Shown: positions 42,922-63,788 of the stretch, one piece after another | How positions within the stretch are numbered: the stretch's first letter is position 1 | Layout: each line of letters begins with the position of its first letter | DNA from: Arthrobacter hankyongi | GTDB taxonomy: Bacteria > Actinomycetota > Actinomycetes > Actinomycetales > Micrococcaceae | Length of the DNA: 64,000 nt | Assembly: GCF_022012395.1 (NCBI RefSeq) | Contig: NZ_JAKLTQ010000004.1 | Span: forward strand, 1 to 64,000 | Direction: 5' to 3' | The notes under the pieces: generated by a model | Told to the model about the DNA's origin: nothing | What the model saw: the letters and a program-made list of their open reading frames with translations, nothing else | Database searches by the model: none | Program-made: the position numbers and the translations under genes

Positions 42922-42935
42922 TAAATGAACGGTTG
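42922..42935. promoter_or_regulatory. Weak island operator copy, upstream of hydrolase
   Basis: TAAATGAACGGTTG matches 10 of 14 positions of the island motif TTAAYGAAYGTTAA and lies 18 bases before the GTG start. Weak on its own; noted because of its position. Confidence 0.3.
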
Positions 42936-43092
42936 TTGTGTGGCGAAAGCACAGATGAGCTTCGAGCAGGCACCGATCGCCAGCCGTCCGGGGAGAGGGC
43001 ATGCACCAGCTGGTACGGTTTCTGGATGGCGATGACCGCGGTGACGGGACCAAGGCCGGTCCTGACATTGGTCCCATCAGTTGGTCGCGACC

Positions 43093-44589
43093 TCAGTCCG
43101 CCTCGGTCAGGGACTCGGCCGTGTGATTGTGAAAGGGGTCTACTTCGTCGCGCCCGAGTCTGGCGTACCGGGACGGATTCGAGCGGCGGAGGCGTAGGGC
43201 GATGTAGATTCCCGCGAGCAATGCCAGCGGAAGCGGAATCAGCAACCAGGTGTACTGCCCAGGCTCTCCTCCTGCCACGAGGTGGAAGTTGACGGTTGCC
43301 ATCACGACCACGAAGAGCAGGGATACGGCGGAGATGGCAGGAGCCACGTAGATCTTGAAGATGCCTTCGGAATTGGATGAGCGGCGAGTGGCAAACCAGG
43401 CAATGATCGCTACAGAGACCAATGCCATGAGGCCGAGCACACCGACCGTTCCAATGGCAACAAGCTGCGCGTACAGAATGGATTCATCGATCGGCAGGAC
43501 CGCGATGATCGCGATCAGAAGCCCGGCAACCGCCGCGGCTGCGTTTGATGCGACGTGAGGAGAAGCGTGGCTATGATGCACCCGCGCGAGTGAGCGCGGC
43601 AGCGCGTGGTCGTATCCAAGATTGTACGTATACCTGGCGATAACGTTGTGGATCGACACATTCGCGGCGAAGCTGGAGGTGAGCGCCATAATGAGCGTGA
43701 TCTGCACGAAGATGCCTCCGACAAAATGGCCGGCAGCATTTGCAAACATGTCGGTCGTCTCGTTTGTGGCTACGTCGACGGCATCAGACCCATAAGCGGC
43801 GATCAGCCCGTAGCAGGTCAAGGCATACAGAACTCCGACAAAGAGTACGGCGCCATAGGTGGCTCGGGGAATAGTGACATTGGGGTGGCGCACCTCTTCA
43901 CGGAAGAGTGCTGTCGCTTCGAAGCCCATGAACACCATGAATGCGAAAAGCATGGTCACGCCAATATCGCCCTTGATGAACTCCGATGGAAGTAGCGGGG
44001 TGACGGAGAGGCCCTCTGCGCCCCCTTGGGCGAGGGTGAAGGCATTGAAGATCAGGATGACCAGCACCTCGAGCACCATGACCACGGAGAGCACCTTCGC
44101 CGAGAGTTCGATGTTGAAATAGCCGAGCGTGCTGACCGCAGCCCAGCTCACGACGGCGGAGATCCACCAGGGGATGGCCGGGCCGCCGACCGATTGGATC
44201 AGGCCAGCTGCCACGACCCCGATGAATGCGTAGGTGCCGACGAGGACCAGCAGGTACGAAATGATTGCCAGATAGGCGGTTCCGAGGCCGGCCGGCTTTC
44301 CCAGTCCCCGGCTCACAAATGTGTAGAAGGCTCCCGGCCTGTCGACTCGCTTGGACATTGCGACGTAGCCAGCACTGAAGATCAGCAGGATCACCGTAGC
44401 GATCACGAAGGCAACGGAAGTCCCGTTGCCGCCGAATATGATCGCGACTGGGATGTACCCGGTCACCACGGCCAGCGGGGCGGAGAACGCAAGCACTGTC
44501 AGCATGAGCGACATTACGCCCATCCGGCCCGTCAGTTGGGTCCCGTGCTTACCGCCTTCGAGGCTGGGGGCGTTCTTGGTTGTGGCCAT
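43093..44589 (-). CDS. APC-family amino acid/amine permease
   Basis: A 498-residue transporter with 12 membrane segments. Features of the APC superfamily are visible: an early GYIPVAIIFGGNG, SAGYVAMSKRVDRPGAFYTF after helix 2, and the conserved MVFMGFEATALFREEVRHPN block in the middle. It would import a cationic or neutral amino acid, amine or betaine-like compound by proton or ion coupling. Upstream at 44727 there is a copy of the island operator. It shares the strand with the hydrolase gene 188 bp downstream. Confidence 0.9.
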   Translation of the reverse strand: MATTKNAPSLEGGKHGTQLTGRMGVMSLMLTVLAFSAPLAVVTGYIPVAIIFGGNGTSVAFVIATVILLIFSAGYVAMSKRVDRPGAFYTFVSRGLGKPAGLGTAYLAIISYLLVLVGTYAFIGVVAAGLIQSVGGPAIPWWISAVVSWAAVSTLGYFNIELSAKVLSVVMVLEVLVILIFNAFTLAQGGAEGLSVTPLLPSEFIKGDIGVTMLFAFMVFMGFEATALFREEVRHPNVTIPRATYGAVLFVGVLYALTCYGLIAAYGSDAVDVATNETTDMFANAAGHFVGGIFVQITLIMALTSSFAANVSIHNVIARYTYNLGYDHALPRSLARVHHSHASPHVASNAAAAVAGLLIAIIAVLPIDESILYAQLVAIGTVGVLGLMALVSVAIIAWFATRRSSNSEGIFKIYVAPAISAVSLLFVVVMATVNFHLVAGGEPGQYTWLLIPLPLALLAGIYIALRLRRSNPSRYARLGRDEVDPFHNHTAESLTEAD

Positions 44590-44726
44590 CTTTGATTATT
44601 ACCTTTCGAGAGAAAGTACCCGCCCTGTGGGAATAGGTCACCGATTCTGCACGTGGACGCCTCAACGAGCGGGCTGAGTCTGCATGTCCCGCCGGGCTGA
44701 TCGTCTATGACGCTGCGGCGTGATGC

Positions 44727-44740
44727 TTATCGAACATTCA
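44727..44740. promoter_or_regulatory. Island operator copy upstream of APC permease
   Basis: TTATCGAACATTCA matches 11 of 14 positions of TTAAYGAAYGTTAA, lies about 140 bp before the permease start and continues into AATAAG. Confidence 0.45.
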
Positions 44741-45150
44741 ATAAGGGAAGCCTGTCAAGGGTTTGTCAGGCTAAAGCACATATATTTATTCCCGGCCAGA
44801 GGCGCACTCGGCGCCTGTTTCCCAACCCTGACCCAGCCCGCTGGTCCGGGAGGGAGCGGCTGTTAGGGGGCGGAACCCCTGTGGGTCGGCGAGTGTGCAG
44901 TTCACCAAACCCGCAGGAGGCCTGTCGTGCCAGCCTGTTATTCGGGGGTGAAACGCAAATAACCGGGCCGGCCAGTGGCCGGTGCTGCCGGATTCACCCT
45001 TTCTGGCAGGCTTGCAGCCGGCGCTAGGGGCGACGTCGGCAGCGATGCTGGGCACGATCCTGCACGTGGGCGGGGTCCAGGCCCGACGCCGCGGTAGACC
45101 GCCTGCGGGGAAGTTTCCGATGAGTCATGGAAAGCCCTTGACGAACTTGA

Positions 45151-45164
45151 TTAACGAACGTTAA
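45151..45164. promoter_or_regulatory. Island operator, best copy, upstream of NCS1 permease
   Basis: TTAACGAACGTTAA: two perfect 6-bp inverted half-sites (TTAACG/CGTTAA) separated by AA. Flanks CTTGA and ATGAG resemble those of the copy at 50214. It lies about 200 bp upstream of the permease start and about 560 bp upstream of the divergent APC gene. Confidence 0.65.
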
Positions 45165-45364
45165 ATGAGTCTCTTGGAACTTAAGAAGGTTCGGTGGAGG
45201 TCCAAAGCTCCGGAAGAGGCGGCAAGAGGCGGGCAGGTCGAGTTGGCGCCGACGAACAAAGCCAAATGGCACAGACGCCGGGAGGAGTGCCCCGGAGCTA
45301 TGACCCCAACCAGCCCGGCAGATCAGACACATCGATTTTCCGTTGTTACAGGCAGGCGAGAATA

Positions 45365-46918
45365 GTGAACGAACCCGAAGAAGCGACTCTCAGGTCGCCT
45401 CTGCAACTCGAACTGAGCACCGTCGACGACCCTCGGGTAATCAAGCGACAGCTTCAAGAGGAGTACACCAACCACGCAGTGCCGACCACTGCACGCCTCG
45501 GCAAATGGGGCATCTTCAGCGGTTGGTCCTCCATCGCCAGTGCCATGGCCTTTGTATACTACGGCGCGTTGTCGGCCAGCCTCGTCGGCGTGCAGCAGGC
45601 CCTGATCGGAATTGTCCTGACCGTCATCGTGTACTCGGTCCTGGGCACAAAGAGCGCCCGGGAGGCCATCCGTTGGGGGCTCAACTCCACACTGCTGTCC
45701 CGTGAACTGTTCGGTTTCAGGGGAGCCGCCCTGGCGCCCCTGCTGGTGGCATCGGCCGGCGTCTACTACGCAGTGTTTGAAAGCAGCGTGCTGGCCGTCG
45801 CACTGCAGTCCTATTTCCAGGTCTGGGATATCCGGGTCTGGTACGCGATAGTCATCGCCGGCATGCTGCCGCTGATGCTCGGAGGCATGCAGACTTGGTT
45901 GAACAAACTCAACGGCATCTCGCTGCCCGTCTATTTCTTCGGCCTGCTAGCCGCAGTTGTCGCGGCGGGCATGCGGTTTGGATGGGCCGGGGACTGGTCT
46001 GCCTTCGGACCGGCCGCGTCGGCCACCGTCATCCCGGGGTGGCTCACCGTGTTCGTCCTCTATATGGGCGTCTGGATCCTGTTCCCGGACACGCAGGATG
46101 CCGCCCGCTTTGGCCGGGGAACGGATTCGAAGTTCCATGAACGGGTCAGCTTTGGATGGGTTTTCTACCTCATCGCGTACCTATTCAACGGACTTGTCGG
46201 CATCTTCATCGTCGCACTGGCCGCTCCGCAGGACAGCGTCACCGAGTCCGGCGTCGTCCACGGCGTCATCGGTGCGCTGGGCGTCGTCGGCCTCATCGTC
46301 ATTATCGTCAGCCAGGTCCGCATCAACTCGGCAAACTTCTACTTTGCCAGTGTCAATATGGAACGGTTTGCCGCCCACTTCAGCCGGCGCAACCTCTCCC
46401 GCCGCACCTGGGTCATCGTGCTTCTGGTGGTTGTCTTTGTCCTGATGTTCACGGATGTCTTCAGCTACATCGCCATCGCCCTCGCCTGGCAGGCCGTACT
46501 GGTTGTGTCCTGGGTAGGAATAATGATCGTCCACTGGCTGCTGGACAGACACAAGGAGCCGGAATTCCGCCCCGCCCGGCTCCGTGCCGTTGCCCCCGGA
46601 TTCGGCGTTTGGGTCGCCTCCTCGGCTGTGGGCATCACCCTGCTCCAGCTTCCGGCCCAGCTGCCCGTGCTCTCCGCCCTGGCGCCGCTGGTTTCCCTCG
46701 CCGCCTCATCGCTGCTCTATTGGGCAGTCCGGGCAGCAGGCCTGAGCGCCGGGAAGCCGGTCGGAGCTGACCCGGTCCGCGCCCAAGTCCAGGACGTCTG
46801 GGGGACCCGGATCAAGTGTTCAGGATGCACTTTGAACTACGTTGCCTTCGAAATGGACACGGCGCGCTCAGGCGATCATCCTTTGTGCCTGGACTGCCAG
46901 TCCCGGGACCGATCCTGA
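45365..46918 (+). CDS. NCS1-family permease with C-terminal zinc-ribbon-like tail
   Basis: A 517-residue transporter with about 12 membrane segments. The N-terminal VPTTARLGKWGIFSGWSSIA and the central GMQTWLNKLNGISLPVYFFG, VLYMGVWILFPDTQDAARFG and QVRINSANFYFASVNMERF are typical of NCS1 nucleobase/cation symporters (cytosine, hydantoin, allantoin or vitamin uptake). Unusually, a soluble tail follows the last helix and contains CSGC (Cys485, 488) and CLDC (Cys508, 511), a possible Zn ribbon. The frame is open upstream to 45194; GTG 45365 begins the recognisable protein. Confidence 0.88.
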   Translation: MNEPEEATLRSPLQLELSTVDDPRVIKRQLQEEYTNHAVPTTARLGKWGIFSGWSSIASAMAFVYYGALSASLVGVQQALIGIVLTVIVYSVLGTKSAREAIRWGLNSTLLSRELFGFRGAALAPLLVASAGVYYAVFESSVLAVALQSYFQVWDIRVWYAIVIAGMLPLMLGGMQTWLNKLNGISLPVYFFGLLAAVVAAGMRFGWAGDWSAFGPAASATVIPGWLTVFVLYMGVWILFPDTQDAARFGRGTDSKFHERVSFGWVFYLIAYLFNGLVGIFIVALAAPQDSVTESGVVHGVIGALGVVGLIVIIVSQVRINSANFYFASVNMERFAAHFSRRNLSRRTWVIVLLVVVFVLMFTDVFSYIAIALAWQAVLVVSWVGIMIVHWLLDRHKEPEFRPARLRAVAPGFGVWVASSAVGITLLQLPAQLPVLSALAPLVSLAASSLLYWAVRAAGLSAGKPVGADPVRAQVQDVWGTRIKCSGCTLNYVAFEMDTARSGDHPLCLDCQSRDRS

Positions 46919-47202: not shown

Positions 47203-47874
47203 TTACCCGGATGCCGATGCCGCGAGTGCGCCCGATACCGTTCCGGAAAATCTGCCGCCTGCGGCTTCCTCGTCTGCTCCCACCGACCGGAGCGCGAGGT
47301 TGACCATCTGCCGGGTGACCTGGCCGACTGTCATGCGTCCGTCCGGCTTGAACCAAACATGCACGTATTCGCACATCGTAACAATCGCATAGGCGGCGAC
47401 CCCTTCGTCCGAGTATTCGAACTTCCCGGACGCCCTTCCCGCGGCCAGCGTAGACCTTAGGTCCCGCATGTATTCTCGCTGAATTCCGATGAGCTTGGTC
47501 TGATGCTCGTCGCTGAGATCCGTCAAGAGGGCCTTCATTCCCACCGTAGCCGCATAGGCGGACGCAACCTCCGCCTGTTCGAGCTGCCAGGTCACGTGAG
47601 CTGCCACTGTCTGAGCCAAACGGGACACCGGTTCCGTTGCATCCACCGAATCCCTGACATAGGTAACGAAGCTGACCAGCACCTGTTCGAGGGCGGCAGA
47701 GAACAGTTCCTCCTTTGAGTTGAAGTGCCAATAGAGGGCCGGTGTAGTGATGCCAATGTCCGCGGCAATAGAACCCAGGGGCGTGCCCGCATAGCCGTTC
47801 CGGAGGAACCTGTTCGAGGCGGCCTCCAAAATCCGTTCGCGGCTTACGCTCGGTGGCTTAGGTGCTTTCGGCAT
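47203..47874 (-). CDS. TetR-family transcriptional regulator
   Basis: A 223-residue regulator. The helix-turn-helix is in residues 10-58 (RERILEAASNRFLRNGYAGT, then ITTPALYWHFNSKEELF), a typical TetR DNA-binding domain. The remaining helical part matches the TetR_C ligand domain of the catabolism-linked subgroup (MCEYVHVWFKPDGR near the end). It is the only transcription factor gene in the 41.9-63.8 kb island, so it is the best candidate to bind the repeated 14-bp operator found before island genes. Its own upstream region has no clear copy within 200 bp. Confidence 0.92.
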   Translation of the reverse strand: MPKAPKPPSVSRERILEAASNRFLRNGYAGTPLGSIAADIGITTPALYWHFNSKEELFSAALEQVLVSFVTYVRDSVDATEPVSRLAQTVAAHVTWQLEQAEVASAYAATVGMKALLTDLSDEHQTKLIGIQREYMRDLRSTLAAGRASGKFEYSDEGVAAYAIVTMCEYVHVWFKPDGRMTVGQVTRQMVNLALRSVGADEEAAGGRFSGTVSGALAASASG

Positions 47875-48230
47875 ACTCGTCTCCCAATGGCAGCAGTCGA
47901 AATAGCGGTCAGCGGAACGGTCAGTTCCCACCTGGTGCTCAACAACGACAAGGCGGCCACGCCTGCGGCAGAATCTCTTTGACGAGGTATCTTCCCGACG
48001 ATCCGCCATCCTTGCCGGCTGTGCTTCGGTTGCCGTCCCCGACTGGACAGACACCAACCTCGGTCAGAGCCGGATGTTTTGCGTCCAAACCAAGTGTACT
48101 GACCTCTTGACGCTTCTCCTTAATGAATGTTAAATCAATAGTGCAAGGGGTCGTTCCCCACGGAAGGGCAGTTACAAGCCGGGCCCTCTTTCAGCCAAGT
48201 TCACTTCAATCCACAATGACGAGGAGAGTC
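47875..48230. other. Divergent promoter gap, TetR / BKACE
   Basis: No gene is seen in these 356 bases. The operator copy at 48120 lies about 100 bp before the BKACE start. The remainder has no recognisable dyad. Confidence 0.5.
48120..48133. promoter_or_regulatory. Island operator upstream of BKACE gene
   Basis: TTAATGAATGTTAA matches all 14 positions of TTAAYGAAYGTTAA, about 97 bp before the BKACE ATG and 246 bp from the TetR start. Confidence 0.6.
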
Positions 48231-49259
48231 ATGACGAATATCGACTGGGACCGCGTATCCAAGGGTGTTGCGCGCGAGAACAAGAAGATGATCTGGCGGC
48301 CGTACGGCATTCCCACGGTCATGGATCTGGAACACTCCTGCTTCCACGACGCGCCGATTTCGAAGCCGTGGACCGAAATCCCGGAGCAGATGATCGTCTC
48401 GGTGGCAATCACCGGGGCGTTCTTCCGCAAGGATCAGAACCCCCATCAGCCCATCACCACCGAGGAGATCCTCGCCTCGGCGCGGGAGGCCGCCGCCGCC
48501 GGCGCCAGCGCGATCCACATCCACGTCCGGGACGAGGACGGCTACAACGTCCTGTCCCCGGAGCGGTTCGAGGCCGTGATCCAGCCCCTGCATGAGGAAT
48601 TCCCCGACGTGCCCGTGGACGCCTGCCTGGTCCCGGCCCTGGACGGGGAATGGGAGAAGATGAGCGATGTCCTCGACTCGGGCCTGCTCGACGCGGCGCC
48701 GATCAACAGCACCGCGACCTATATAGGAGATTCCCTGTTCGTCAAGCCCACGCCGATCCTGCTGGAGAAGACCCGCAAGATCCTCGAGGCCGGGTCCGTG
48801 CCCGAAATCGCCGTCTACACCGACGCCGACGTCTCCAACGCCGACCGCTACCTGTTCAAGTCCGGCCTGTTCAAGTCCGGAGCGATCTGGCTGGTGCTGC
48901 CGGCCCTGCCCGGCTGCAGCCCGATGGAAAACCCGCGTCAGATGGTTGCCGGCCTGACCCGGACCGTCGAGGCCATCCGCGACGTCGACCCGGAAGCGGT
49001 CATCATGGTCTGTGCCGCCGGGCGCGCCTCGACGCACTTGGCCACCCTCGCCGCGGTCATGGGCCTGCACATCCGCGTCGGCATGGAAGACACCTACTAC
49101 AAGTGGCCGCACCGCGAGGACAAGCTGACCAGCAACCTCGAGGCGTTCCAGCTCGCTCAGCAGTTGGCCGAAGTCGTCGGCCGCCGCGTCGCCACCCCCG
49201 CTGAAACTCGGGCCATCATGGGCCTGAAGTCCCGGACCGAGGCCGCGGCTAGCCGCTGA
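48231..49259 (+). CDS. BKACE-family beta-keto acid cleavage enzyme (DUF849)
   Basis: A 342-residue protein. The Zn ligands are seen in SAIHIHVRDEDGYNVLS (HxH) and in the late LHIRVGMEDTYYKWPHR (Arg, Glu-Asp). These are the hallmarks of BKACE enzymes, which cleave beta-keto acids with acetyl-CoA to acetoacetate/acetoacetyl-CoA plus a CoA ester, for example dehydrocarnitine or 3-keto-5-aminohexanoate. The N-terminus has about 55 extra residues before the first strand, longer than the classical 270-310 residue members. GAGGAGAG lies seven bases before ATG 48231. The presence of a BKACE implies a beta-keto acid intermediate in the island's pathway. Confidence 0.9.
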   Translation: MTNIDWDRVSKGVARENKKMIWRPYGIPTVMDLEHSCFHDAPISKPWTEIPEQMIVSVAITGAFFRKDQNPHQPITTEEILASAREAAAAGASAIHIHVRDEDGYNVLSPERFEAVIQPLHEEFPDVPVDACLVPALDGEWEKMSDVLDSGLLDAAPINSTATYIGDSLFVKPTPILLEKTRKILEAGSVPEIAVYTDADVSNADRYLFKSGLFKSGAIWLVLPALPGCSPMENPRQMVAGLTRTVEAIRDVDPEAVIMVCAAGRASTHLATLAAVMGLHIRVGMEDTYYKWPHREDKLTSNLEAFQLAQQLAEVVGRRVATPAETRAIMGLKSRTEAAASR

Positions 49260-49844: not shown

Positions 49845-50213
49845 ACGCCGCCGCTGGAACGTTCGTCGAGGCCCAGGCCTGAACGACACAGTTCCCTTGG
49901 ATTCACCGGACGGCCAGATGGCCGGAATAGGCCCTCCTGACCGGCTGCCGTGCACCGTCCGCCGCTTTGGAGTGCGCAGCCGTCCGGCACTTGCGGCGGC
50001 CACACTGCCGCCGCCGGAGGCTGTCCCCCTGCCATTGATCGCGGGCGCGGGACTTTCGCGGCCCTGCGGCCCAAACCGCGTTTGCTCTTATCGGCACCGT
50101 GTCCGATGCCCCGCCAGGGCTGGCCGAGGGTACGCGCCGAGCATGTCATCGGGCTCGCCCGGCATGGGGCCGCGGGAGTGATCCAGTTCATGAAAAGGCC
50201 TTGACCCTCTTCC
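49845..50213. other. Gap upstream of ferredoxin gene
   Basis: No gene or RNA is recognisable in this stretch; frames crossing it lack family features. The island operator lies at its right end. Confidence 0.4.
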
Positions 50214-50227
50214 TTGATTAACGTTAA
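50214..50227. promoter_or_regulatory. Island operator upstream of ferredoxin/reductase operon
   Basis: TTGATTAACGTTAA matches 12 of 14 positions of TTAAYGAAYGTTAA and contains the 10-bp palindrome TTAACGTTAA (50218-50227). The flanks (CTTGATTAACG, TTAAATAAGG) equal those of the 45151 copy with four bases removed. It ends 40 bp before the ferredoxin ATG. Confidence 0.6.
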
Positions 50228-50267
50228 ATAAGGATAAGAGCACGAAGCGCAGTATGAGGAGAAACCA

Positions 50268-50585
50268 ATGCCAAAGATCACGTACCACCACGCCGGCGGG
50301 GCCACCGACACGGTCGAGGTCCCTGAGGGCACCTCGATCATGCGCGCCGCGCTCAGCAACAGCGTCAGCGGCATCATCGGCGAATGCGGGGGCCAGACGA
50401 TGTGTGCCACATGCCACGTGTACGTACGTGGTGATGTCGATCTGCCCGAGATCTCCGAGGAAGAAGACGAGATGCTCGACTGCACGGCCGACGATCGGCT
50501 CAATAATTCGCGGCTGGGTTGTCGGGTCGTTGCGGGTCGCGACTTTGGCGAGATCGAGGTCGACCTCCCTCAGAGCCAGAACTGA
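50268..50585 (+). CDS. [2Fe-2S] ferredoxin, putidaredoxin/adrenodoxin type
   Basis: A 105-residue ferredoxin. The cluster ligands are Cys40, Cys46 and Cys49 (GECGGQTMCATC) and Cys85 (RLGCRVV); Cys72 is extra. The spacing Cx5Cx2C and the acidic interaction helix DLPEISEEEDEML match ferredoxins that deliver electrons from an FAD reductase to class I bacterial P450s. The reductase gene follows after 12 bases, and two P450 genes lie 8-12 kb downstream in the same island, so this is their probable electron donor. GAGGAG precedes the ATG. Confidence 0.95.
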   Translation: MPKITYHHAGGATDTVEVPEGTSIMRAALSNSVSGIIGECGGQTMCATCHVYVRGDVDLPEISEEEDEMLDCTADDRLNNSRLGCRVVAGRDFGEIEVDLPQSQN

Positions 50586-50597
50586 TCGGAGCGTGAC

Positions 50598-51845
50598 ATG
50601 AGCACTGTCATCATCGGTGCCGGACACGCCGGCGTGCAGGCGGCGGAGTCGCTGCGCACTGAGGGCTATGCGGATCGGATCGTCCTGCTGGACAAAGCCG
50701 AGCACCTGCCCTATCAGCGTCCGCCGCTGTCGAAGGACTACATCAAGGCCGGCGGTGATCCCGCGCCCCTGCCGCTGCGCGGTGCCGCCTTTTACGGCGA
50801 GCACGACATCGATCTGCGCACGGGGGTGGAGGTCGTGCGCATCGACAGCCAAGCTCAGCTGGTGTTCGTTAAGGGTGGGGAGCCCATCCCGTACAACGAG
50901 CTCATCATCGCAGCAGGCGCCGAAGCTCGCCGAGCCCACTGCGCGGGCAACGGTCTGGAGGGCATCAACTACCTGCGCACCGTCGAGGATGCAGAGACCC
51001 TGCGTGCCCAGCTCGATCGAGGATACGGCCGCGTCGTGGTGGTCGGCGCCGGGTTCATCGGCCTGGAATTCGCGGCGGTCGCAGCGCAGCGCGGGCTCGA
51101 CGTTACCGTCATCGATTTCGCCCAGCGCCCTATGCAGCGCGTGCTGTCGCCGTCAATGTCGGATTACTTCACGCAGGTGCACACCGACTTGGGAGTGAAG
51201 CTGCACTTCGACGAGGGCCTTGACCATTTTGTCGGCGAGCAAGGCCGGGTCACCGCCGTGGCCGGCACCTCGGGCGTGACCTATCCGTGCGACTTCGCAG
51301 TCGTGGGTCTGGGCGTGGTCACCGACGAAGACCTCGCCGCCGCGGGGAGGATCGAATGCGATCGGGGCATTCTCGTGGATGAGTACCTGAGCACGAACGT
51401 GCCGCACGTGTACGCCATAGGCGACCTCGCGGTATTCCCGTCGCACCATTTCGGCGGCAATCTGCGGCTCGAATCGGTGCAGAACGCGACCGACATGGCC
51501 AAGACCGTCGCAAAGACGATCGCGGGCAATCCCTCACGCTACGACATCGCGCCCTGGTTCTGGTCGAATCAGGGCCCGGTGAAGCTGCAGATCGCGGGGC
51601 TGGCGGATCCGGCCGACGTCGTGATCGAACGCGGAAACCGCTCGACGGGAAAGTTCAGCCAGTTCCTCTTCCGCGACGGGCAACTCGTCGCCGTCGAGTC
51701 GGTCAACGCACCGGCAGACCACGTCGCAGCCCGCAAGCTTCTCGAACACGACGCCGGCATCACGATGGAGCAGGCCCGGGACCATGATTTCGACCTCAAG
51801 GCATACGCGCGAAACCTTTCTTCTTCCGCAATGACTCCTTCGTGA
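50598..51845 (+). CDS. FAD-dependent ferredoxin reductase (class I P450 system)
   Basis: A 415-residue flavoprotein with the FAD motif TVIIGAGHAGVQAAESLR at the start, PPLSKDYIKAG, the NAD motif VVVVGAGFIGLEFAAVAAQR at about residue 148 and the second FAD contact VYAIGDLAVFP. A reductase C-terminal domain follows (FWSNQGPVKLQIAGLA). It is a putidaredoxin-reductase-like enzyme that moves electrons from NAD(P)H to the ferredoxin encoded just upstream. Part of its C-terminal region is found again as a diverged fragment at 53288. Confidence 0.95.
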   Translation: MSTVIIGAGHAGVQAAESLRTEGYADRIVLLDKAEHLPYQRPPLSKDYIKAGGDPAPLPLRGAAFYGEHDIDLRTGVEVVRIDSQAQLVFVKGGEPIPYNELIIAAGAEARRAHCAGNGLEGINYLRTVEDAETLRAQLDRGYGRVVVVGAGFIGLEFAAVAAQRGLDVTVIDFAQRPMQRVLSPSMSDYFTQVHTDLGVKLHFDEGLDHFVGEQGRVTAVAGTSGVTYPCDFAVVGLGVVTDEDLAAAGRIECDRGILVDEYLSTNVPHVYAIGDLAVFPSHHFGGNLRLESVQNATDMAKTVAKTIAGNPSRYDIAPWFWSNQGPVKLQIAGLADPADVVIERGNRSTGKFSQFLFRDGQLVAVESVNAPADHVAARKLLEHDAGITMEQARDHDFDLKAYARNLSSSAMTPS

Positions 51846-53383: not shown

Positions 53384-54823
53384 GCCGGGCCCATCTCCCG
53401 GCGTGTCAGCCACCGGTCATATCTTCCCTGCGGGGACCATAGGCGGGTGGCGCGTCTGCCTGACAGCAGCATGGCCCAACGGCTGGACGGTGCGTCCAGA
53501 ACAGATAACCGGAGATATGTGAACCGCGACACAGGCGATTCTCTCCCCGCATCGGACGGCGGACGGGAGCATGCGCCAGGCCGGAGAGGCCCCGGGTTCC
53601 GCCCGCTGTTGACAGCGGGCCTCCGCGCAAGGCTTGCTCAAGTGCGCCTCAGAGCCTGAGGCATCGCGGGGATGGACCCGGCGTGTGGGAGGGCGGCGTA
53701 GGGCAACGGCAGCCCTTGAATCGGGGGTCATCGGTCGAGGGCACAGCAAGGCTGCGCCGCGAAACAGGGCCCTTCCGAGGCGAAGGCCCGCATGTCCGTC
53801 ATCATCGGAGGTGCCGGCAGGAGACTTGAAACGCCGAGGCGATTGGCGTGAACCGGTAATGCTTTGCCGCCGCGGCCGGTCAGCTTACTGCCTCTGAGGG
53901 GATTCCGTAGGGCATGTTTTCGCTGAGTTCGACGGGGAGTTGGCCCGGACCTGGCTTGGTGGCTGGGATGCCGAGGCCGCCTTCTGGCCTGCCAGGTGCC
54001 CGAGTCCTTCGGCGGCGGGGTTGGGAAGTTGGCCGAAGTCATCAATGCTGGATGATCGGATGCTTCGCCGGGTCATGCCCTGACGTCTTTCTAAGAGGAG
54101 GGTCAAGAAGTTCCAGCCCTGCCTGCTCGATGCGCGGGGCAGGGTGTGTACGGCTGGATCAGGTTTCGTGCCGGATGATGCGGTATTCGCTGGTGGAGAG
54201 CATTTTGCGTTTCCCGGTGCTCGGTTCCCGGAGCGGCACGATGTAGAGCTGCGGCCTGGTCTCCTCCGCTCGCCATTGGTGAGTATGTCCACTCCGCGGA
54301 TGTCGATGCGGTCGCCGTGTTGGAGGCGGGTGCATTCGGCGGCTCCGTTCTTCATGGTGCAGTTGCCTTTTTCGCGGTTATCGGTTCCGGCAAGGCGCAG
54401 GGGTGCAGGCTGTGGCGGGATGGATCTGCCGGAGGTACCGTTAGCCCGGAAGCCAAGGCGGTCGAGGGAAGCCCCGGGCAGCCCGTGCGGATAGGGCGCC
54501 GAGACATGCTGCCTGAGCCGCGGTCCTTTCCGGCCGACGTTCGCGCGGAAAGTGTTCGATGGGCGGGCGGCTTACGAGGCGACGGCCGGGGCCGGCGCCC
54601 GGGACAAGCGGCTGCCCTGTGCAGGAGGTCCCGACTGAACGGGGACAGCGGCAGCAGCAGATCCGTCGCCGGCTTGTAGGACGCGAGCCATTGCCGGCCG
54701 CACGTCAACGTTCTCCGAACGGTCAGCTAAGCGGAGCACCTCGCCGTGCTCCACGGTACTGGAAGGCCCATAACGGCCGCTCGTGAGGTTCTTCGTCAAG
54801 GCCGTGTGGCGCCCGTTCTTTGT
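53384..54823. other. Degenerate region with gene remnants
   Basis: Apart from the fragment at 53288 and the broken small gene at 54159, no intact gene is supported in these 1.4 kb. Frames on both strands are short, change often and lack family motifs. One protein-like minus-strand tail (NMPYGIPSEAVS before a stop near 53881) hints at another lost gene. The stretch looks like a decayed mobile or plasmid-derived segment. Confidence 0.5.
54159..54355 (-). pseudogene. Frameshifted small hypothetical gene
   Basis: From ATG 54355 the frame reads CTRLQHGDRIDIRGVDILTN, then after a one-base-type shift the protein-like sequence continues in another frame as PQLYIVPLREPSTGKRKM and LSTSEYRIIRHET to a stop at 54159. 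The two parts join into one plausible protein of about 65 residues, so this is a recently broken gene. Family not recognised. Confidence 0.5.
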
Positions 54824-55759
54824 TCAAGCCTTACCACTCGTGCGGCGGTAGGTCCGCTCGGCGGCCGAGACGACGTTGGCGAGAAGCATGGCGCGGGTCA
54901 TCGGTCCTACGCCTCCAGGATTGGGGGACATCCAGCTCGCGACAGTGGCAGCACCTGGCTCAACATCGCCTCTGAGCGTCGCGATTCCGGAGGTCGCATC
55001 GACAACCCGTGAAACGCCCACGTCCAGAACGATCGCGCCGGGCTTGAGCTGGGAAGCCTGGACTATACCGGGCACTCCAACTGCCGCTACAACAACGTCC
55101 GCGCGGGCGATCAAGCTTGGAAGATTCCTAGTTCCCGTGTGAGCCAGGGTTACGGTTGCATTGATGGCGCGACGTGTCAGCAGGAGCCCCAAGGGCCGGC
55201 CGACCGTTACCCCGCGGCCAAGGACCAGAACCTCGCGCCCATTGAGCGAAATGCCGTGCCGGTCCAACAGTTCGACTATGCCGTGGGGGGTGCATGGCAA
55301 CGGTGAGTCAAGGTCATCACCGACGTTCAATACAAGTCGGCCGAGGTTGGTTGGATGAAGGCCGTCGGCGTCCTTTTCCGGGGCGATTCGCTCGAGAATC
55401 CTGTTTTGATCCAGGTGTGAGGGCAGGGGCAGCTGAACGATGTAACCCGTGGTGGCAGGGTCGGCATTTAGGCCATCCAACACCGCTTCTAGGGCGTCTT
55501 GGCTGATATCGGCCGGAAGGTCGCACCGAATCGACTTAATGCCGATCTCGGCACAATCCCTGTGCTTTCCGGAGACATATGAGTGGCTCGCCGGGTCGTC
55601 TCCGACGAGAACGGTCCCCAGACCGGGAACGATCCCGGCAGCATTGAGGGCTGCCACGCGTTCAGCGAGTTCGGCCTTGATCACCCGGGCGGTGCTCTTG
55701 CCGTCAAGGATTCCTTGGAGCATCTGGGTGGGCATGGGGCTCCCCGTGGTAACGGACAA
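54824..55759 (-). CDS. folD: Methylenetetrahydrofolate dehydrogenase/methenyl-THF cyclohydrolase
   Basis: A 311-residue FolD. It contains [20 protein letters not shown], the catalytic Lys in [30 protein letters not shown], the NADP site [18 protein letters not shown] and the end [20 protein letters not shown]. It oxidises 5,10-methylene-THF to 10-formyl-THF. TTG 55759 has AAGGAG five bases upstream and is preferred; ATG 55735 is the alternative. Being next to GcvT-like and PurU genes, it is an island-specific second copy for C1 recycling rather than the housekeeping one (inference). An operator copy lies just upstream. Confidence 0.93.
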
Positions 55760-55775
55760 TTTTTCTCCTTGTGCG

Positions 55776-55789
55776 TAAATGAACGTGAT
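55776..55789. promoter_or_regulatory. Island operator copy upstream of folD
   Basis: TAAATGAACGTGAT matches 11 of 14 positions of TTAAYGAAYGTTAA and lies 16 bp before the folD start, overlapping the region where its promoter or leader should be. Confidence 0.4.
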
Positions 55790-56110
55790 AGATAGGTCTT
55801 TTGCCCAGAGCTGTGGAAGTCGGTCTCGGCCGGAGCCGCTATTCCCGCCCGGGCTCCCGGCCCGCGGGCCGGACACGGCTCGTTGTGGCGATCCGGCGTT
55901 CGCTCCCTCCCACCGGCCACGCCCTTTTCGTCTCAGGGGCTTCGTTCCTCTGGGCTGGTCCCGCCGTGGAGGTGAGCGAGTCCAGCGCGCGAATCGCCGT
56001 AGATCCGGGGCGCCGCATGGCCGGAGGCGACTCGCGCAGAAGTATTTCAAGGACTGAACCGACTCGCAGCGTGGTGGCAGGCCTCACGATTCATCGAGGA
56101 GCACCTCTCC

Positions 56111-56124
56111 TTAACATATGTTCA
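56111..56124. promoter_or_regulatory. Island operator copy between folD and gcvT-like genes
   Basis: TTAACATATGTTCA matches 11 of 14 positions and contains the 8-bp palindrome ACATATGT with half-sites TTAAC/GTTCA. It lies in the 589-bp divergent gap, which shows no gene. Confidence 0.5.
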
Positions 56125-56210
56125 GCCAGCCCTAGGGTCAATGGGTGCGCGTTGTGGATCCTTTGAATTGCGGCCGCTGCAATATTTGTTTCGATTTAGC
56201 CGAGACCTAT

Positions 56211-56224
56211 TGAATGACCGTTAA
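56211..56224. promoter_or_regulatory. Island operator copy upstream of gcvT-like gene
   Basis: TGAATGACCGTTAA matches 12 of 14 positions of TTAAYGAAYGTTAA, 124 bp before the gcvT-like start. Confidence 0.5.
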
Positions 56225-56348
56225 ATTATCGGTAGTCTTCCTGCATCGTTCGCCGCCGCGCTTACCCCCAGCGTCGCGCCCGCTCCGTGAGAGTGGAGGC
56301 GAGTTGCTGGCGAACGGCGGCATGCCAATCTGCGAAAGGTCGTCACAA

Positions 56349-57464
56349 ATGCCAATGCCAGTAGAGCTTGAACCAAACCCGACAACCGCGCGCTTCGCCG
56401 ACCGCGTCTCCGAGTGGGCAGACTCGTTTGGCCGGCCCTTTGCCCTCCATTACGGCGATCCGGCCAAGGAGTACAAGGCGCTCCGCGAGGCCGTTGTCGC
56501 GCTCGAGTATTCCACGATCCGCAAGTGGTTCGTGGAGGGCCCGGATGCCGTCGCGGCGGTGGACAAGGTCTTCTCCCGCAACGTCAAAGCGCTTCCCGTC
56601 GGTCGTGTGGCCTATGGAGTGTTTACCGATGACGACGGCTTCATGATCGAGGATGTCACGGTCGTGAAGCTCTCCCCGGAGAGTGTTCTTGTGCTCGGCG
56701 GTGAGCAGCTCACGCAGCAGCAGCTGGAGCAGGCGGTGCCGGAGGGAACGACGGTCACGGATCGTCGCGCCGAGTTCGCGGCCGTGTCTCTGCAGGGCCC
56801 CCTGAGCCGCACCCTGCTACAGCGCCTGACCACGGCCGACGTTTCGAACGAGGCTCTGCCCTATTACGGTGCACTTCTCGACGTCGAGGTGGCGGACGTC
56901 CCTGCGACGATCCTTCGACTCGGGTTCACGGCTGAGCTCGGCTATGAGGTTATGGTGCCTGTCGAGCACACCGATACGCTCTGGGACGCGATCCTGGCCC
57001 AACGCGACCTCGGCATCGAGCTCATGGGCCTCGAAGCGATCCTTGTGGCCCGCACCGAAGCTGGCATGGTCATGAACGAGTACGAATACGACCGCTCGAC
57101 CACACCATACGAGTGCCGACTGGGCTGGACGGTCGACTTCGAGAAGGGGCCGTTCCAGGGACGGGACGCGCTGCTCGCAAAGAAGAACAACGTTCGCGCC
57201 CGTCTGGTGAGCGTGGAGACGACGGCAGCCGCCGACGGCCTGGACGGCCGACCCCTGCTTCTGGACGGACAGCCGGTCGGGCGCGTTTCGATGGCCGTTT
57301 CGTCACCGGCGCTCGGGGGCCGGACTCTTGCCCTCGCACGTGTGGACACCGCGCACGCCCGCATTGGCACTGCGCTCGAGATCGACACTGACCAGGGGCC
57401 GGCTGCTGCGACGGTCCGCCGGACGCCGGCCTATGACCCCGAGCGCACCCGCGTTAAGAGCTGA
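56349..57464 (+). CDS. GcvT/DmdA-like folate-dependent aminomethyltransferase or demethylase
   Basis: A 371-residue protein with the GcvT fold: an N-terminal YGDPAKEYKALREAVVALEY, SLQGPLSRTLLQRLT, LGFTAELGYEVMVPVEHTDT and GLEAILVARTEAGMVMNEYE (folate-binding Glu region). A C-terminal barrel domain follows (DFEKGPFQGRDALLAKKNN). No GcvP/GcvH genes are near, so it is not a glycine cleavage component. The length matches DMSP demethylase (DmdA) and short dimethylglycine/sarcosine-type demethylases. It probably moves a methyl or methylene group from the island's substrate to THF. purU starts two bases after its stop. Confidence 0.85.
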   Translation: MPMPVELEPNPTTARFADRVSEWADSFGRPFALHYGDPAKEYKALREAVVALEYSTIRKWFVEGPDAVAAVDKVFSRNVKALPVGRVAYGVFTDDDGFMIEDVTVVKLSPESVLVLGGEQLTQQQLEQAVPEGTTVTDRRAEFAAVSLQGPLSRTLLQRLTTADVSNEALPYYGALLDVEVADVPATILRLGFTAELGYEVMVPVEHTDTLWDAILAQRDLGIELMGLEAILVARTEAGMVMNEYEYDRSTTPYECRLGWTVDFEKGPFQGRDALLAKKNNVRARLVSVETTAAADGLDGRPLLLDGQPVGRVSMAVSSPALGGRTLALARVDTAHARIGTALEIDTDQGPAAATVRRTPAYDPERTRVKS

Positions 57465-57466
57465 TC

Positions 57467-58309
57467 TTGGAACGCTACGTACTCCGTTTGCGGGCGGCGG
57501 ATCAGCCCGGCATCATCCATACAATGACCGGTGGGATCGTGGCCACCGGCGGAAACATCCTTGATAGCGCGCAGTACTCGGACGAGAGTAGCGGGCAGCT
57601 CAGCGTGAGGGTCGAGTTCGAGTCGGAGAAAGACCCGGAAGTGATTCGCACTGAGCTCGTGGACGGTCTTGCCCGCTTCGATCCGATCGTGGAGTTGCGG
57701 AGAGGCAGTGACCGCCGGCGAGCCTTGATCATGGTTTCGAAGCTCGATCACTGCCTGGATGACCTTTTGTACCGGTACCGCCGGGGGGAGCTGCCGATTG
57801 AGATCCCGATGATCGTATCGAACCACGAGGACCTGCGCAGTGTCGTCGAGGCGGCCGGTGTCCCCTTCCACCACATTCCGGTCACTGCCGCGACCAAGGC
57901 CGCCGCGGAGCAGGAACTGTCTAGCTTGGTCCAAGAGAGCGGCGCGGACTTCATCGTCCTGGCCCGGTACATGCAGGTCCTCTCCGACGACTTCTGCGCA
58001 CGTTTCGCGGGTCGGATCATCAATATCCACCACTCGTTCCTGCCGAGTTTCAAGGGTGCGAAGCCGTATCACCAAGCCAAGGGGCGGGGCGTCAAACTCA
58101 TCGGGGCGACCGCGCACTATGTGACCGCTGACCTCGATGAGGGACCGATCATCGAGCAGGATGTGGTGCGCGTCGATCATCGGAGCAGCGCGGAACACCT
58201 CGTGGTGATCGGCCGCGACGTGGAGCGGAAGGTACTCTCGCGGGCGGTGCAGCTCCATGCCGACGACCGCGTCTTCCTCTCCGGACAGCACACGGTCATC
58301 CTCGCCTAA
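57467..58309 (+). CDS. purU: Formyltetrahydrofolate deformylase
   Basis: A 280-residue PurU with an N-terminal ACT domain (LRLRAADQPGIIHTMTGGIV) and a C-terminal formyltransferase-type domain. That domain has VSNHEDLRSV, FIVLARYMQVLSDDF, the catalytic Asn-His in INIHHSFLPSFKGAKPYHQA and Asp in GATAHYVTADLDEGPII. It hydrolyses 10-formyl-THF to formate plus THF. With FolD it regenerates free THF for the GcvT-like demethylase. The TTG start at 57467 follows the gcvT-like stop after two bases (coupling). Confidence 0.95.
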   Translation: MERYVLRLRAADQPGIIHTMTGGIVATGGNILDSAQYSDESSGQLSVRVEFESEKDPEVIRTELVDGLARFDPIVELRRGSDRRRALIMVSKLDHCLDDLLYRYRRGELPIEIPMIVSNHEDLRSVVEAAGVPFHHIPVTAATKAAAEQELSSLVQESGADFIVLARYMQVLSDDFCARFAGRIINIHHSFLPSFKGAKPYHQAKGRGVKLIGATAHYVTADLDEGPIIEQDVVRVDHRSSAEHLVVIGRDVERKVLSRAVQLHADDRVFLSGQHTVILA

Positions 58310-59853: not shown

Positions 59854-59880
59854 GGACCCTACCTTCGCTACCGCGGCAGC

Positions 59881-60928: not shown

Positions 60929-61333
60929 TCAGTCGTCGATCTCCCAGTACTCCAGGTACTGGGAATCCTCTCCATCAGGGTTCGGACCGTAGATGCCCAG
61001 CATCCGGGCGTACTTGGGCGCCCAATAGTAGCCGGTGTGCCCAGCAGGTACACGGATGGTGTCACCCGGGCGACCCACCACCTCGGTGTCGCCGACGCGA
61101 ATGTGCAGCTCACCGTCCAGGACGACGCTGACCTCGTCATGCGGATGGTGGTCGGCGAAGCCGGCCCGGTCAAGTTCCCACTCCGACATGGCGTAGGTGT
61201 CCCATCCCTCAGGGCGAGTGTTGAAGACCCAGCGCGCCTTCATGCGCGGGGTCTTCGCTGAAACCTGCGTCAGCGGTCCGGAGACGATGAGTTCGGGCTT
61301 CGCTGCCTCGCGGTCATTGGTTGTCGTGCTCAT
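60929..61333 (-). CDS. Cupin-domain protein
   Basis: A 134-residue single-cupin protein. Motif 1 is ADHHPHDEVSVVLDGELHIR (metal His/His/Glu set) and motif 2 PGDTIRVPAGHTGYY (third His). The extended start RWVFNTRPEGWDTYAMSEWE is not typical of well-known enzymes. It could be a metal-dependent dioxygenase/isomerase or a small-molecule sensor. GGAGG is seven bases before ATG 61333; the frame is open further upstream. It is 268 bp downstream of the second P450 gene and probably co-transcribed with it. Confidence 0.85.
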   Translation of the reverse strand: MSTTTNDREAAKPELIVSGPLTQVSAKTPRMKARWVFNTRPEGWDTYAMSEWELDRAGFADHHPHDEVSVVLDGELHIRVGDTEVVGRPGDTIRVPAGHTGYYWAPKYARMLGIYGPNPDGEDSQYLEYWEIDD

Positions 61334-61601
61334 GGCTGTGCCTCCATCTTCGAAAGGGTCAGGGAGCCGCGGGATGATCGACAACCGCCCCGACGCGCGC
61401 CCGCAACTGCGTGCAGCAGCGGCAGTTCGGCAAAGGGCGCCCCGGCCCGCCCGCGGATACTGCACACTGTCGACTCGAAACTGGGCCCATAAAGTCTGAA
61501 GGCGCCCGTCTCGGAGTGGTGGGCGCCTTCAGCGGCCCTGGGGGCCAGGCGGGAGGGCCAGCAGTCACGTTGTCATGACGGCCGGCGCACCTGACGGATG
61601 G

Positions 61602-62807
61602 CTACGAAAGCCGGACGGTCAGCCCTTCGCAGTTGCGGTGACGGTCGGAGAAGACCCACTGGGGTTCTCCGATGACCTCGATCTTCTCGGCCCGCTCCGC
61701 GAGGACATCGAGTACGGCTCGCATCTCGACACGCGCCACGCCCTGACCGCAGCAACTGTGGGTGCCCGCGCCGAAGGCGATCGCCATGCTCGCGGCCGGA
61801 GGACGCGTCCAGTCGAACCCGTCGGGGTTCCGGAAGACTTCCGGGTCGCGTACGGCAGCGCCGAGAATGAACCGGACCTGCGTGTTCGGGGGAATCGTGA
61901 CGCCGAGAATCTCGTAGGGCTCGGTCGTGTATCGGTCGACGAGCACCTCGGGCAGCGCACGCCGAAACGCCTCGTTGATGATGGCGGTACGCGCGTCGGG
62001 GTTCTCCCGATATTCCTTCCACGCCTCCGGATAGGCAGCCAAGTCGGCAAGTGCCGATGCCATGCAGTAGCCGGGGTTGTGGGCGGCGGAACCCCACAGA
62101 ATCTGGATCGACTCCTTGAGCTCGCGCTCCGTCAGTCCGCCCTCATCAGTGATCTTGATCATCGCGTCAAGGAGCCCGTCTCCGGGATTCCGCCGCTTCT
62201 CCTGGATGAGACGGTCGGCGTTGAACATCATGAACCCGAAGCCTTCCCAGGCGCGGGTCTTCTCGTCCGCGGTCGGCTCCCATCCCAGCGAGTCCATCGT
62301 CTGATTCGTGGCGACAATGTAGGGAATGCCGTCTTCACGCGGAACCCCCAAGGCAGCTGCCATCGCGTCCTGGGCGGGCTGCACCCCGAGGTCGCGGTGT
62401 GCATTGATGATGCCGTCGGGGCCCATCCTGTCCAGGGCCGCCCGCGCCGACTCGGCGGCCACCTCACCCATGCCCTTGGTGGCCTTAGGGGTCAACCATT
62501 TCCTGAACGACTTGTGGATCCGGCTGTGCGTTTCGCCTTCGGTAAGCAGCACCGAGTTGAGGTTGGAGGCCCAAGGGCTGTCGCCGATCCCTTCCGGCGG
62601 CACGGCTACGAGCGAGGGGTCCTTGAGGTGTTCGACGACGTCGTCGTACCGGGTGATGACGATCGTCCCGTTCTCGAGCTGGAGGATCGGGTACTCCTCG
62701 CGCACACGCGCGAACCATGGCCACGGGGCCTTCACGAATTCCGGGTCTCTCCAGGGCAGGAGGTCTTCGCCGGGGGGTGCGGTGATCGAATGCTGTGTCG
62801 TTGTCAC
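61602..62807 (-). CDS. Cytochrome P450 (second of two), atypical I helix
   Basis: A 401-residue P450. The heme Cys352 is in FGAGTHSCCGQGVARVEMR and ExxR in INEAFRRALPEV. The I helix reads SIQILWGSAAHNPGYCMAS, again without the canonical AGxxT; both island P450s share a His at the corresponding kink (GHMDVGY, AAHNPGY). GTG 62807 with GAAGGAG seven bases upstream is chosen; the frame is open to 62957. It lies 151 bp downstream of the SDR gene on the same strand. It is not a duplicate of the first P450 (low overall similarity), so it probably acts on a different step. Confidence 0.93.
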   Translation of the reverse strand: MTTTQHSITAPPGEDLLPWRDPEFVKAPWPWFARVREEYPILQLENGTIVITRYDDVVEHLKDPSLVAVPPEGIGDSPWASNLNSVLLTEGETHSRIHKSFRKWLTPKATKGMGEVAAESARAALDRMGPDGIINAHRDLGVQPAQDAMAAALGVPREDGIPYIVATNQTMDSLGWEPTADEKTRAWEGFGFMMFNADRLIQEKRRNPGDGLLDAMIKITDEGGLTERELKESIQILWGSAAHNPGYCMASALADLAAYPEAWKEYRENPDARTAIINEAFRRALPEVLVDRYTTEPYEILGVTIPPNTQVRFILGAAVRDPEVFRNPDGFDWTRPPAASMAIAFGAGTHSCCGQGVARVEMRAVLDVLAERAEKIEVIGEPQWVFSDRHRNCEGLTVRLS

Positions 62808-62958
62808 AGTGTCTCCTTCATCCATGTCCTGAGACTTGAACAGGACCTTGATTGTGCTGATGGGACCTTTCCCTTGCTCATGAAAAAGGCCGAGAGAGGA
62901 TCGGCGGCCGGCTGGAAGGGTGACTTCTTGGGAGGGGGAGGCGGCCGGCCTCTCCATG

Positions 62959-63735
62959 TCAGATGGGATTTCGTGCGGCCGTCAGCCAGCCGCCGTCGAT
63001 GACCATCGCGGCGCCATGGATGAAGTCCGCGTCCTTGCTCGCCAGGTAGACGGCCAGGCGGGCGATTTCCCGCGGCTGGCACCAACGCCCGGCAGGCGTA
63101 CGCGCAATCTCGTCCTCGTTGTCGGGCAGGGTGTCGGAGCCGCCGTCCGGCATTGTAAGCCCGGTGAGAGTCGCCCCCGGACAGATGGCGTTCACCCGGA
63201 TGCCGCGCCGGCCGTAGTCGAACGTGAGCTGGCGTGTCAGGCCCAGCACCCCGTGCTTGGCTGCCGTGTACGCGGTGCCTCCTCCCGCTGCACTGAGGGA
63301 CGCGATGGAGGCAGTATTGATGATTGCGCCGCCGGACTGCTCGAGCATCTGGGGAATGACGGCACGGGCCATGAGGAACGGACCGGTCAGGTTCACCGCG
63401 ATGGTCCGGTCCCACTCCGCCAGCGAAATCTCGTGCGCCGGCTGGAAGCTGTCGATGATGCCCGCGTTATTGCAGAGCACGTCGATTCGTCCGGCCCACG
63501 TACGCACCTGATCAATGGAGGCCTGTACTGACTCCGGGTCCGCGACGTCGACCTTGACCGCCACCGCCCTGTCGGGGTTGTCCAGTTCGTCCACGGTCCG
63601 CCGCGCGCTCGTTAGGTTGATGTCCAAGGCTGCCACCCGGGCGCCCTCGGCCACGAATTCCCGTACCATGGCGGCGCCCATCCCGGACCCCGCCCCGGTA
63701 ACGATCACAACGCTGTCTTCGTTGAATGTTGTCAA
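62959..63735 (-). CDS. Short-chain dehydrogenase/reductase (SDR)
   Basis: A 258-residue classical SDR: cofactor motif VIVTGAGSGMGAAMVREF, DVLCNNAGII, catalytic Ser in INTASIASLSAAGG and Tyr/Lys in TAYTAAKHG, and the structural ICPGATLTGL. The Asp after strand 2 (AALDINLTS) indicates NAD(H) preference. It would oxidise a hydroxyl to a ketone, possibly making the beta-keto acid that the BKACE enzyme needs (inference). It is the first gene of a minus-strand unit with the second P450 and the cupin, and has an operator copy 40 bp upstream. Confidence 0.93.
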   Translation of the reverse strand: MTTFNEDSVVIVTGAGSGMGAAMVREFVAEGARVAALDINLTSARRTVDELDNPDRAVAVKVDVADPESVQASIDQVRTWAGRIDVLCNNAGIIDSFQPAHEISLAEWDRTIAVNLTGPFLMARAVIPQMLEQSGGAIINTASIASLSAAGGGTAYTAAKHGVLGLTRQLTFDYGRRGIRVNAICPGATLTGLTMPDGGSDTLPDNEDEIARTPAGRWCQPREIARLAVYLASKDADFIHGAAMVIDGGWLTAARNPI

Positions 63736-63774
63736 GAAACACCGACTTCCCGCCGCTACCAGCCGTAGCGGCCA

Positions 63775-63788
63775 TTAAGGTTCATTAA
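63775..63788. promoter_or_regulatory. Island operator upstream of SDR/P450/cupin unit
   Basis: On the minus strand TTAATGAACCTTAA matches 13 of 14 positions of TTAAYGAAYGTTAA, 40 bp before the SDR start. The rest of the right end (63789-64000) shows no gene. Confidence 0.6.

Follow-up and report, generated by a model that had tools for sequence, protein, structure and literature searches.

A 20-bp palindrome at promoters of a catabolic island in Arthrobacter hankyongi is a predicted operator of TetR_C_24-class repressors

The window that we analysed is a stretch of 64,000 nucleotides, positions 1-64000 of the 249-kb contig C34 of A. hankyongi, whose genome comprises 5.19 Mb in 67 contigs. It contains genes of a catabolic island (Table 1), which continues on the contig beyond the window with a HyuAB unit and an acyl-CoA ligase unit, each with a strong copy of the palindrome described below in front of it. 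The label NCS1 for the transporter is that of the initial annotation, and the protein matched nothing in Pfam or NCBIfam at 1e-3. The cupin, P450 and SDR genes probably form one operon, and the P450a gene (58570) may be part of the gcvT-purU operon. Rfam searches at gathering thresholds returned nothing in the window or in L017, and no tRNA was found in the window, L017 or L018.

Table 1. Genes and palindrome copies of the island. Positions are those of the window unless stated; the position used in the initial annotation is given in brackets for each copy that it listed under a separate number.
Feature	Position	Strand	Match or matrix score
Alpha/beta hydrolase (S15-like)	41948..42904	-	PF02129
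Weak copy right before alpha/beta hydrolase start (42922)	42921..42940	-	13.1 bits
APC-type permease 1	43093..44589	-	PF13520
Operator O1 (predicted), APC permease 1 promoter, CTTATTGAATGTTCGATAAG on minus strand (44727)	44726..44745	-	29.9 bits
Operator O2 (predicted), promoter of transporter called NCS1 (45151)	45150..45169	+	27.7 bits
Transporter called NCS1	45365..46918	+	
TetR1, TetR_N + TetR_C_24 regulator	47203..47874	-	PF00440 6.8e-13, PF17932 5.8e-22
Operator O3 (predicted), BKACE promoter, tetR1/BKACE divergent gap (48120)	48119..48138	+	31.7 bits
BKACE, beta-keto acid cleavage enzyme	48231..49259	+	PF05853 1.6e-48
Operator O4 (predicted), ferredoxin/ferredoxin reductase promoter (50214)	50213..50232	+	32.7 bits
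Ferredoxin + ferredoxin reductase	50268..51845	+	PF00111; PF07992 + PF14759
FolD	54824..55735	-	PF00763, PF02882
Copy not separable from chance (55776)	55775..55794	.	8.4 bits
Weak copy, probably folD promoter (56111)	56110..56129	-	12.2 bits
Operator O5 (predicted), gcvT-purU promoter region (56211)	56210..56229	+	26.5 bits
GcvT-like protein + PurU	56349..58309	+	PF01571; TIGR00655 PurU above cut-off
Cupin, P450, SDR	60929..63735	-	Pfam
Weak copy upstream of SDR-P450-cupin (63775)	63770..63789	-	12.7 bits, chiefly one half
TetR2, TetR_N + TetR_C_24	contig 75080-75754, beyond window		PF00440 + PF17932

The initial annotation had described a 14-bp dyad as an operator shared by most units of the island. 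When we searched both strands of the window with this 14-mer at up to three mismatches, we obtained 13 rows, corresponding to nine distinct places (1229, 44727, 45151, 48120, 50214, 55776, 56111, 56211 and 63775), where 0.92 rows were expected and the maximum in 100 shuffles was 4. The copy at 42922 carries four mismatches (10/14) and was read directly in the sequence. Every coordinate that had been listed therefore holds a copy and the motif is non-random, while its extent and axis had to be redrawn. In an alignment of 12 copies with 25 bp of flank, at width 18 with orientation free and symmetry unimposed, the windows of most copies centred on AACGTT; widths 14 and 16 returned the original frame. 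The symmetrised matrix of eight sites gives the true unit as the 20-bp palindrome CTTATTTAACGTTAAATAAG with the axis AAC/GTT, two bases to the right of the axis first proposed, so that the 14-mer sits off-centre. Pairing about AAC/GTT was 45/72 at the island sites vs. 35/72 about the earlier axis, and 43/63 vs. 32/63 at seven sites of a second genome, G546, both sets of sites having been chosen with symmetric models, which biases the comparison toward AAC/GTT.

Eight strong copies, scoring 23.8-32.7 bits (at least 19.1 in leave-one-out scoring), are spread over 44.7-72.6 kb of the contig. Five lie inside the window (44726, 45150, 48119, 50213 and 56210) and three beyond it (64030, 64449 and 72578), the latter preceding the SDR-P450-cupin unit, HyuAB and the acyl-CoA ligase, respectively; 64030 is 30 bp past the window's end. 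These eight, which are the matrix's own training set, are the sites of at least 18 bits within 35 kb of island, where 0.01 were expected from 200 shuffles. No site of this strength occurred in the 40 kb to the left or the 22 kb to the right of the island, and the flanks held one 13.7-bit place, at 96463. Weak copies of 12.2-13.1 bits were found at 42921, 56110, 63770, 76863 and 76982. Since the contig between 41.9 and 77.0 kb contains 12 places of at least 12 bits vs. 0.46 expected (76982 being lost at the stretch end), most of the weak copies may be real. Against a background of 10 simulated sequences, which per 100 kb gave 7 hits of at least 7 bits and 2.2 of at least 9 bits, the copy at 55775 was indistinguishable from chance. 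All 13 sites of at least 12 bits between 42.9 and 77.0 kb of the contig are intergenic by our own gene list, in a stretch that is 70% coding. The copies listed initially thus fall into three sets: five in the window are strong, those at 42922, 56111 and 63775 are weak, and 55776 is at chance level; we treat the last four as uncertain.

Across the whole genome, the 14-mer with up to two mismatches gave 17 rows, or 15 distinct places, eight of them in the interval 45.1-72.6 kb of this contig, and all four places with no more than one mismatch were on the island. Because the reversed control of the 14-mer gave 8 rows, the seven off-island places are about what chance would supply; their matrix scores were 21.9 (C67:160956), 15.4 (C65:127657), 15.1 (C67:118996), 12.6, 12.2, 10.0 and 7.2 bits. 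With a palindromic 18-mer pattern, which misses 64030 and whose reversed control gave two rows at one place, 6/6 places with up to two mismatches and 7/11 with up to three were on the island, further off-island places being C7:29, C12:417245 and C22:28442. A sequence-only profile at E ≤ 10 gave 10 rows in the own genome, corresponding to five sites, all on the island, and missed three of its eight training sites (44726, 56210 and 64030); it was therefore too strict, and the pattern searches served as the main genome-wide control. The profile had no match in nine congeneric genomes, in three of which scoring covered 150 of 166-190 candidates.

This distribution bears on whether a global regulator encoded elsewhere, for example one of nitrogen or phosphate, binds the motif. 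The place at C67:160956 lies between a phoU-like gene and a sensor-kinase gene (names by reading) and also reads as the direct repeat GTTCA-N6-GTTCA, which resembles a PHO box. However, sites at core genes would be expected of such a regulator, whereas the best 18-mer places were confined to the island and the nine congeners lacked a profile match, and we consider this explanation very improbable.

The position of the palindrome relative to putative sigma-70 promoters was examined next to each site, with -35 and -10 assignments that are consensus matches only. At 44726, 45150, 48119, 50213 and 64449, a TTGAC -35 begins 12-13 bases ahead of the palindrome, which contains a -10-like hexamer at a spacing of 17-18 bp. 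The -35 is TTGACA beginning 13 bp ahead at O1 (spacer 18 bp), TTGACG at -12 at both O2 and O3 (spacer 17 bp in each, with TTAAAT as the -10 within the O2 palindrome) and TTGACC at -12 at O4, the top-scoring site in contig positions 1-100000. The weak copy at 56110 shares this geometry, on the minus strand (TTGACC at -12, TATGTT at +11), and so would belong to folD rather than to gcvT, to which it had been assigned. By consensus, then, five of the eight strong sites overlap their own promoter in one geometry and two do so in others, 64030 with its -35 at -7 and 72578 with the palindrome after the -10. No good -35 was found for O5, where a TTGAC box is absent at the usual distance. TTGAC at -12/-13 occurs at 6/13 sites, with a P of ~1e-12 given the contig's own TTGAC frequency, a nominal value because these distances were picked after they had been seen. 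At the five strong sites of shared geometry and at 56110, the palindrome covers the -10 region, a placement in which a repressor would compete with polymerase.

A motif of this kind could also be mainly a common promoter shape (-35 TTGAC, -10 TTAAAT) and no operator, and the -10-like hexamer does start at palindrome position 12 in the five sites of shared geometry. But the -10 of 72578 (TAGATT) stands before the palindrome, and a good -35 is lacking at 56210. Conservation extends over both arms, which recur in G546 although the distance from the sites to a -35 is different or hard to assign there, and the pattern is almost confined to the island. We therefore give the promoter-shape reading hardly any credence.

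The initial annotation had the TetR at 47203 controlling all of the island as its only regulator. The first part of this claim is too wide: we found no hit of at least 8 bits upstream of the OYE gene (52134), P450a, ADH or tetR2, and weak sites precede the hydrolase, folD and the second APC permease, the hydrolase copy at 42921 reaching 15.7 bits with a matrix from G546. The sole site of tetR1 is the one it has in common with BKACE. The second part is wrong because TetR2 lies in the same stretch of genes, 27 kb further along than TetR1 and outside the region covered by that annotation. TetR1 and TetR2 are 38% identical and share the Pfam class PF17932. Their best PDB sequence match is 3VPR in both cases (TetR1, 1.1e-20; TetR2, 1.6e-19), presumably the structure of TTHB023, which we take to be PfmR.

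Which of the two acts on the palindrome was considered from both sides. Control of the whole island by TetR1 alone would fit its place beside BKACE, with the strong site 48119 in the divergent gap; however, a second regulator of the same Pfam class is present, the TetR of G546 is closer to TetR2 (53% identity) than to TetR1 (48%), and several units have no strong site, making this arrangement unlikely. TetR2 might instead be the master repressor, with TetR1 serving only BKACE or a sub-step. Its recognition-helix stretch, SAPALYWYF, is the same as that of the G546 TetR located next to the conserved sites, whereas TetR1 has TTPALYWHF, but the tetR2 promoter has no strong site and the helix difference may leave specificity unchanged; we regard a TetR2 master as rather doubtful.

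Relatives of TetR1 were rare in the samples searched. Within the genus (10 genomes, E ≤ 1e-30), the family (395 genomes, E ≤ 1e-40) and the class (394 genomes, E ≤ 1e-38), they were found in the own genome only, and within the order (297 genomes, E ≤ 1e-38) in the own genome and G546. An alignment of three TetR proteins retrieved the own genome and G1150 among 396 genomes of the phylum (E ≤ 1e-50). Some genomes are shared between these samples, and in the larger ones scoring was limited to 10 candidates per genome. Neither TetR1 nor TetR2 matched any plasmid at 1e-25. The rarity of the relatives, together with the absence in congeners, points tentatively to acquisition of the island. A scan of genome contigs with TetR1 gave eight loci, none a close full-length relative, and matrix hits in the four AT-rich loci of that scan (GC 32-43%) were discarded as composition noise.

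G546 belongs to another family of the same order, and its genome is 88% complete. It carries a TetR_C_24 homologue beside a BKACE that is 70% identical to the island's, in a cluster that also encodes a SacDH-like protein (43%), an S15-like hydrolase (37% to the island hydrolase), SDRs, a CoA transferase and a second TetR_C_24 protein. The island-genome matrix, built without any G546 sequence, found five sites of at least 18 bits in 20 kb of this cluster, a strength that no site reached in 200 shuffles or in the remaining 18 kb of the cluster contig. Genome-wide, the pattern occurred at eight places in G546, with no control match: five on the cluster contig, two on C541 and one on C82. The first C541 place is where an APC permease frame begins (38% to APC1); the longest version of this frame starts inside the site, and the true start is probably further on. 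The second is 12 bp before a DAO-GcvT fusion gene, with PurU next (55% to its counterpart in the window) and ETF genes nearby. APC permease and GcvT/PurU are gene classes that carry the mark in the island as well. The C82 place (21.9 bits) comes after an alpha/beta hydrolase gene and counts against the operator reading. A matrix from seven G546 sites gave windows overlapping 8/8 strong island sites within its first 10 ranks in 100 kb, which is a consistency check and not a second discovery, since the seven had been found with the first matrix or pattern.

Among three clusters examined (G546, G1150 and a Sphingobium plasmid), the same palindrome was found beside a homologous TetR in G546. The TetR of G1150 is more distant from TetR1 and TetR2, and no such sites were present in the 20 kb around its gene; the operator code would therefore belong to a sub-group. 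A plasmid search with BKACE gave 27 records and led to Arthrobacter sp. NicSoilB8 and Sphingobium sp. TomTYG46. For NicSoilB8, no TetR was among the 35 listed features, in a table that may be incomplete, and the best place scored 13.3 bits. The TomTYG46 cluster encodes BKACE (71%), SacDH-like proteins (44-58%) and a ligase (50%), along with an annotated TetR and a TetR-similar "hypothetical protein" that are 28-31% identical to TetR1 and TetR2; its single site of at least 18 bits, against 0.1 expected, was not significant. In the available part of the tomato Sphingobium paper, the words TetR and P450 are absent and the cluster is left unexplained (PMC10653915).

What calculation shows is that the palindrome exists, that it is concentrated on the island and placed at promoters, and that it recurs near homologous TetR genes in another family. 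The genome-wide concentration, promoter geometry and recurrence uphold the initial proposal of a TetR-type operator, as a prediction, linking many island units. We put at about 0.8 the probability that a TetR_C_24-class repressor system (TetR1, TetR2 or both) uses the motif as its operator, blocks island promoters and is released by an intermediate; the binding and repression themselves, the identity of the inducer and the assignment of sites to either TetR are what we infer. A TetR dimer would sit on the 20-bp palindrome, overlapping both spacer and -10 of a sigma-70 promoter or coming immediately after its -10, and RNA polymerase would be blocked. Binding of a pathway intermediate to the repressor would cause the dimer to leave, allowing joint expression of the transporter, ferredoxin, BKACE, GcvT-PurU, SDR-P450-cupin, HyuAB and acyl-CoA ligase units. 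The inducer could plausibly be a CoA thioester that the acyl-CoA ligase or BKACE produces, as both enzymes are encoded in the island, and the presence of GcvT, FolD and PurU suggests an N- or O-methylated substrate.

Such a regulon would be of an ordinary repressor kind, apparently new and, judging from one genome of another family, conserved between families; literature searches for a TetR in combination with BKACE, for the string AACGTTAA, for TetR_C_24 and for PurU/FolD retrieved no description of it. More tentatively, and with less than even confidence, the TTAATGAACGTTCATTAA-like code and the TetR_C_24 pair might form a portable control kit, in which related regulators in different families of the order gathered different demethylation machinery around a common BKACE core, the demethylation-type genes being P450s, ferredoxin and a stand-alone GcvT in the island vs. 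a DAO-GcvT fusion with ETF in G546. Two paralogues would then read one palindrome, possibly in response to different intermediates. The operator suggests which scattered genes share one pathway, including HyuAB and the acyl-CoA ligase beyond the window, and may serve as a tag for cognate clusters elsewhere, as it led in G546 to the C541 APC permease and GcvT/PurU operon. The ligand of the repressors could reveal the pathway substrate.

HdnoR is encoded on plasmid pAO1 of Paenarthrobacter nicotinovorans. It is described, in the accessible part of the source, as a TetR repressor responding to 6-hydroxynicotine (PMC6550519), and the likeness, by description only, is to a TetR repressor in alkaloid catabolism. 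The same source, to the extent available, describes NicR2 of Pseudomonas putida, a TetR family regulator of nicotine catabolism with HSP as its effector, whose 20-bp inverted repeats, CTATATGTACAGCCATATAA and TTATACCGTCGTACATATAA, overlap the -35 and -10, with competition with polymerase (PMC6550519). As with NicR2, a TetR would act at two or more promoters within a catabolic cluster through 20-bp repeats over the promoter, binding being predicted in our case; the repeat sequences differ, however, and NicR2 acts at two promoters of one cluster with a known effector. For TTHB023 of Thermus thermophilus, the part of the source at hand reports that genes of fatty acid biosynthesis have TetR palindromes at their promoters, with the consensus (a/c)Y(g/t)A(A/C)YGryCR(g/t)T(c/a)R(g/t) (PMC7022988). 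The island system resembles it in having putative TetR palindromes at promoters and in the best PDB match of TetR1 and TetR2, whereas the TTHB023 consensus, as given there, has another centre and its target genes differ.

A DnaB helicase gene with an intein inside (Intein_splicing, LAGLIDADG) lies to the left of the island. By eye, we also recognised a short, decayed partial copy of the ferredoxin reductase gene, because of which a second reductase may once have been present on the island. To the right of the window, an in-frame stop appears to interrupt an enoyl-CoA hydratase gene; the ECH_1 match of its open 173-aa part ends at profile position 166 of 251, and the gene outside this open part was assessed by eye. 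A frame judged by eye to be SnoaL/NTF2-type-like shares with the second APC permease a gap containing weak operator-like places and a TTGACC -35.

Coordinates of the features (L017, stretch of the same contig; L045, Sphingobium plasmid stretch)
Feature	Position	Contig position
DnaB helicase gene	window 38496-41588	
Reductase remnant	window 53299-53385	
Its counterpart in the reductase gene	about 51557-51640	
Enoyl-CoA hydratase gene (minus strand)	L017 11674-12462	71674-72462
Its open part	L017 11941-12462	
Stretch with the SnoaL-like frame and the shared gap	L017 16422-17030	76422-77030
Weak operator-like places		76863, 76902, 76982
Strong operator-like place	G546:C82:4920	
L045	AP027325.1 775447-816418	
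AACGTT-centred places	L045 19757, 21995	

In G546, a genome of another family in the order, a strong operator-like place (21.9 bits) is located after an alpha/beta hydrolase gene, and no target gene for it was recognised in the surrounding stretch (L047).

On the Sphingobium plasmid, a beta-keto acid cleavage enzyme (BKACE; 71% identical) is accompanied by a SacDH-like protein, a ligase and two TetR-like proteins. The AACGTT-centred places there, which do not reach significance in this analysis, may represent a related operator.
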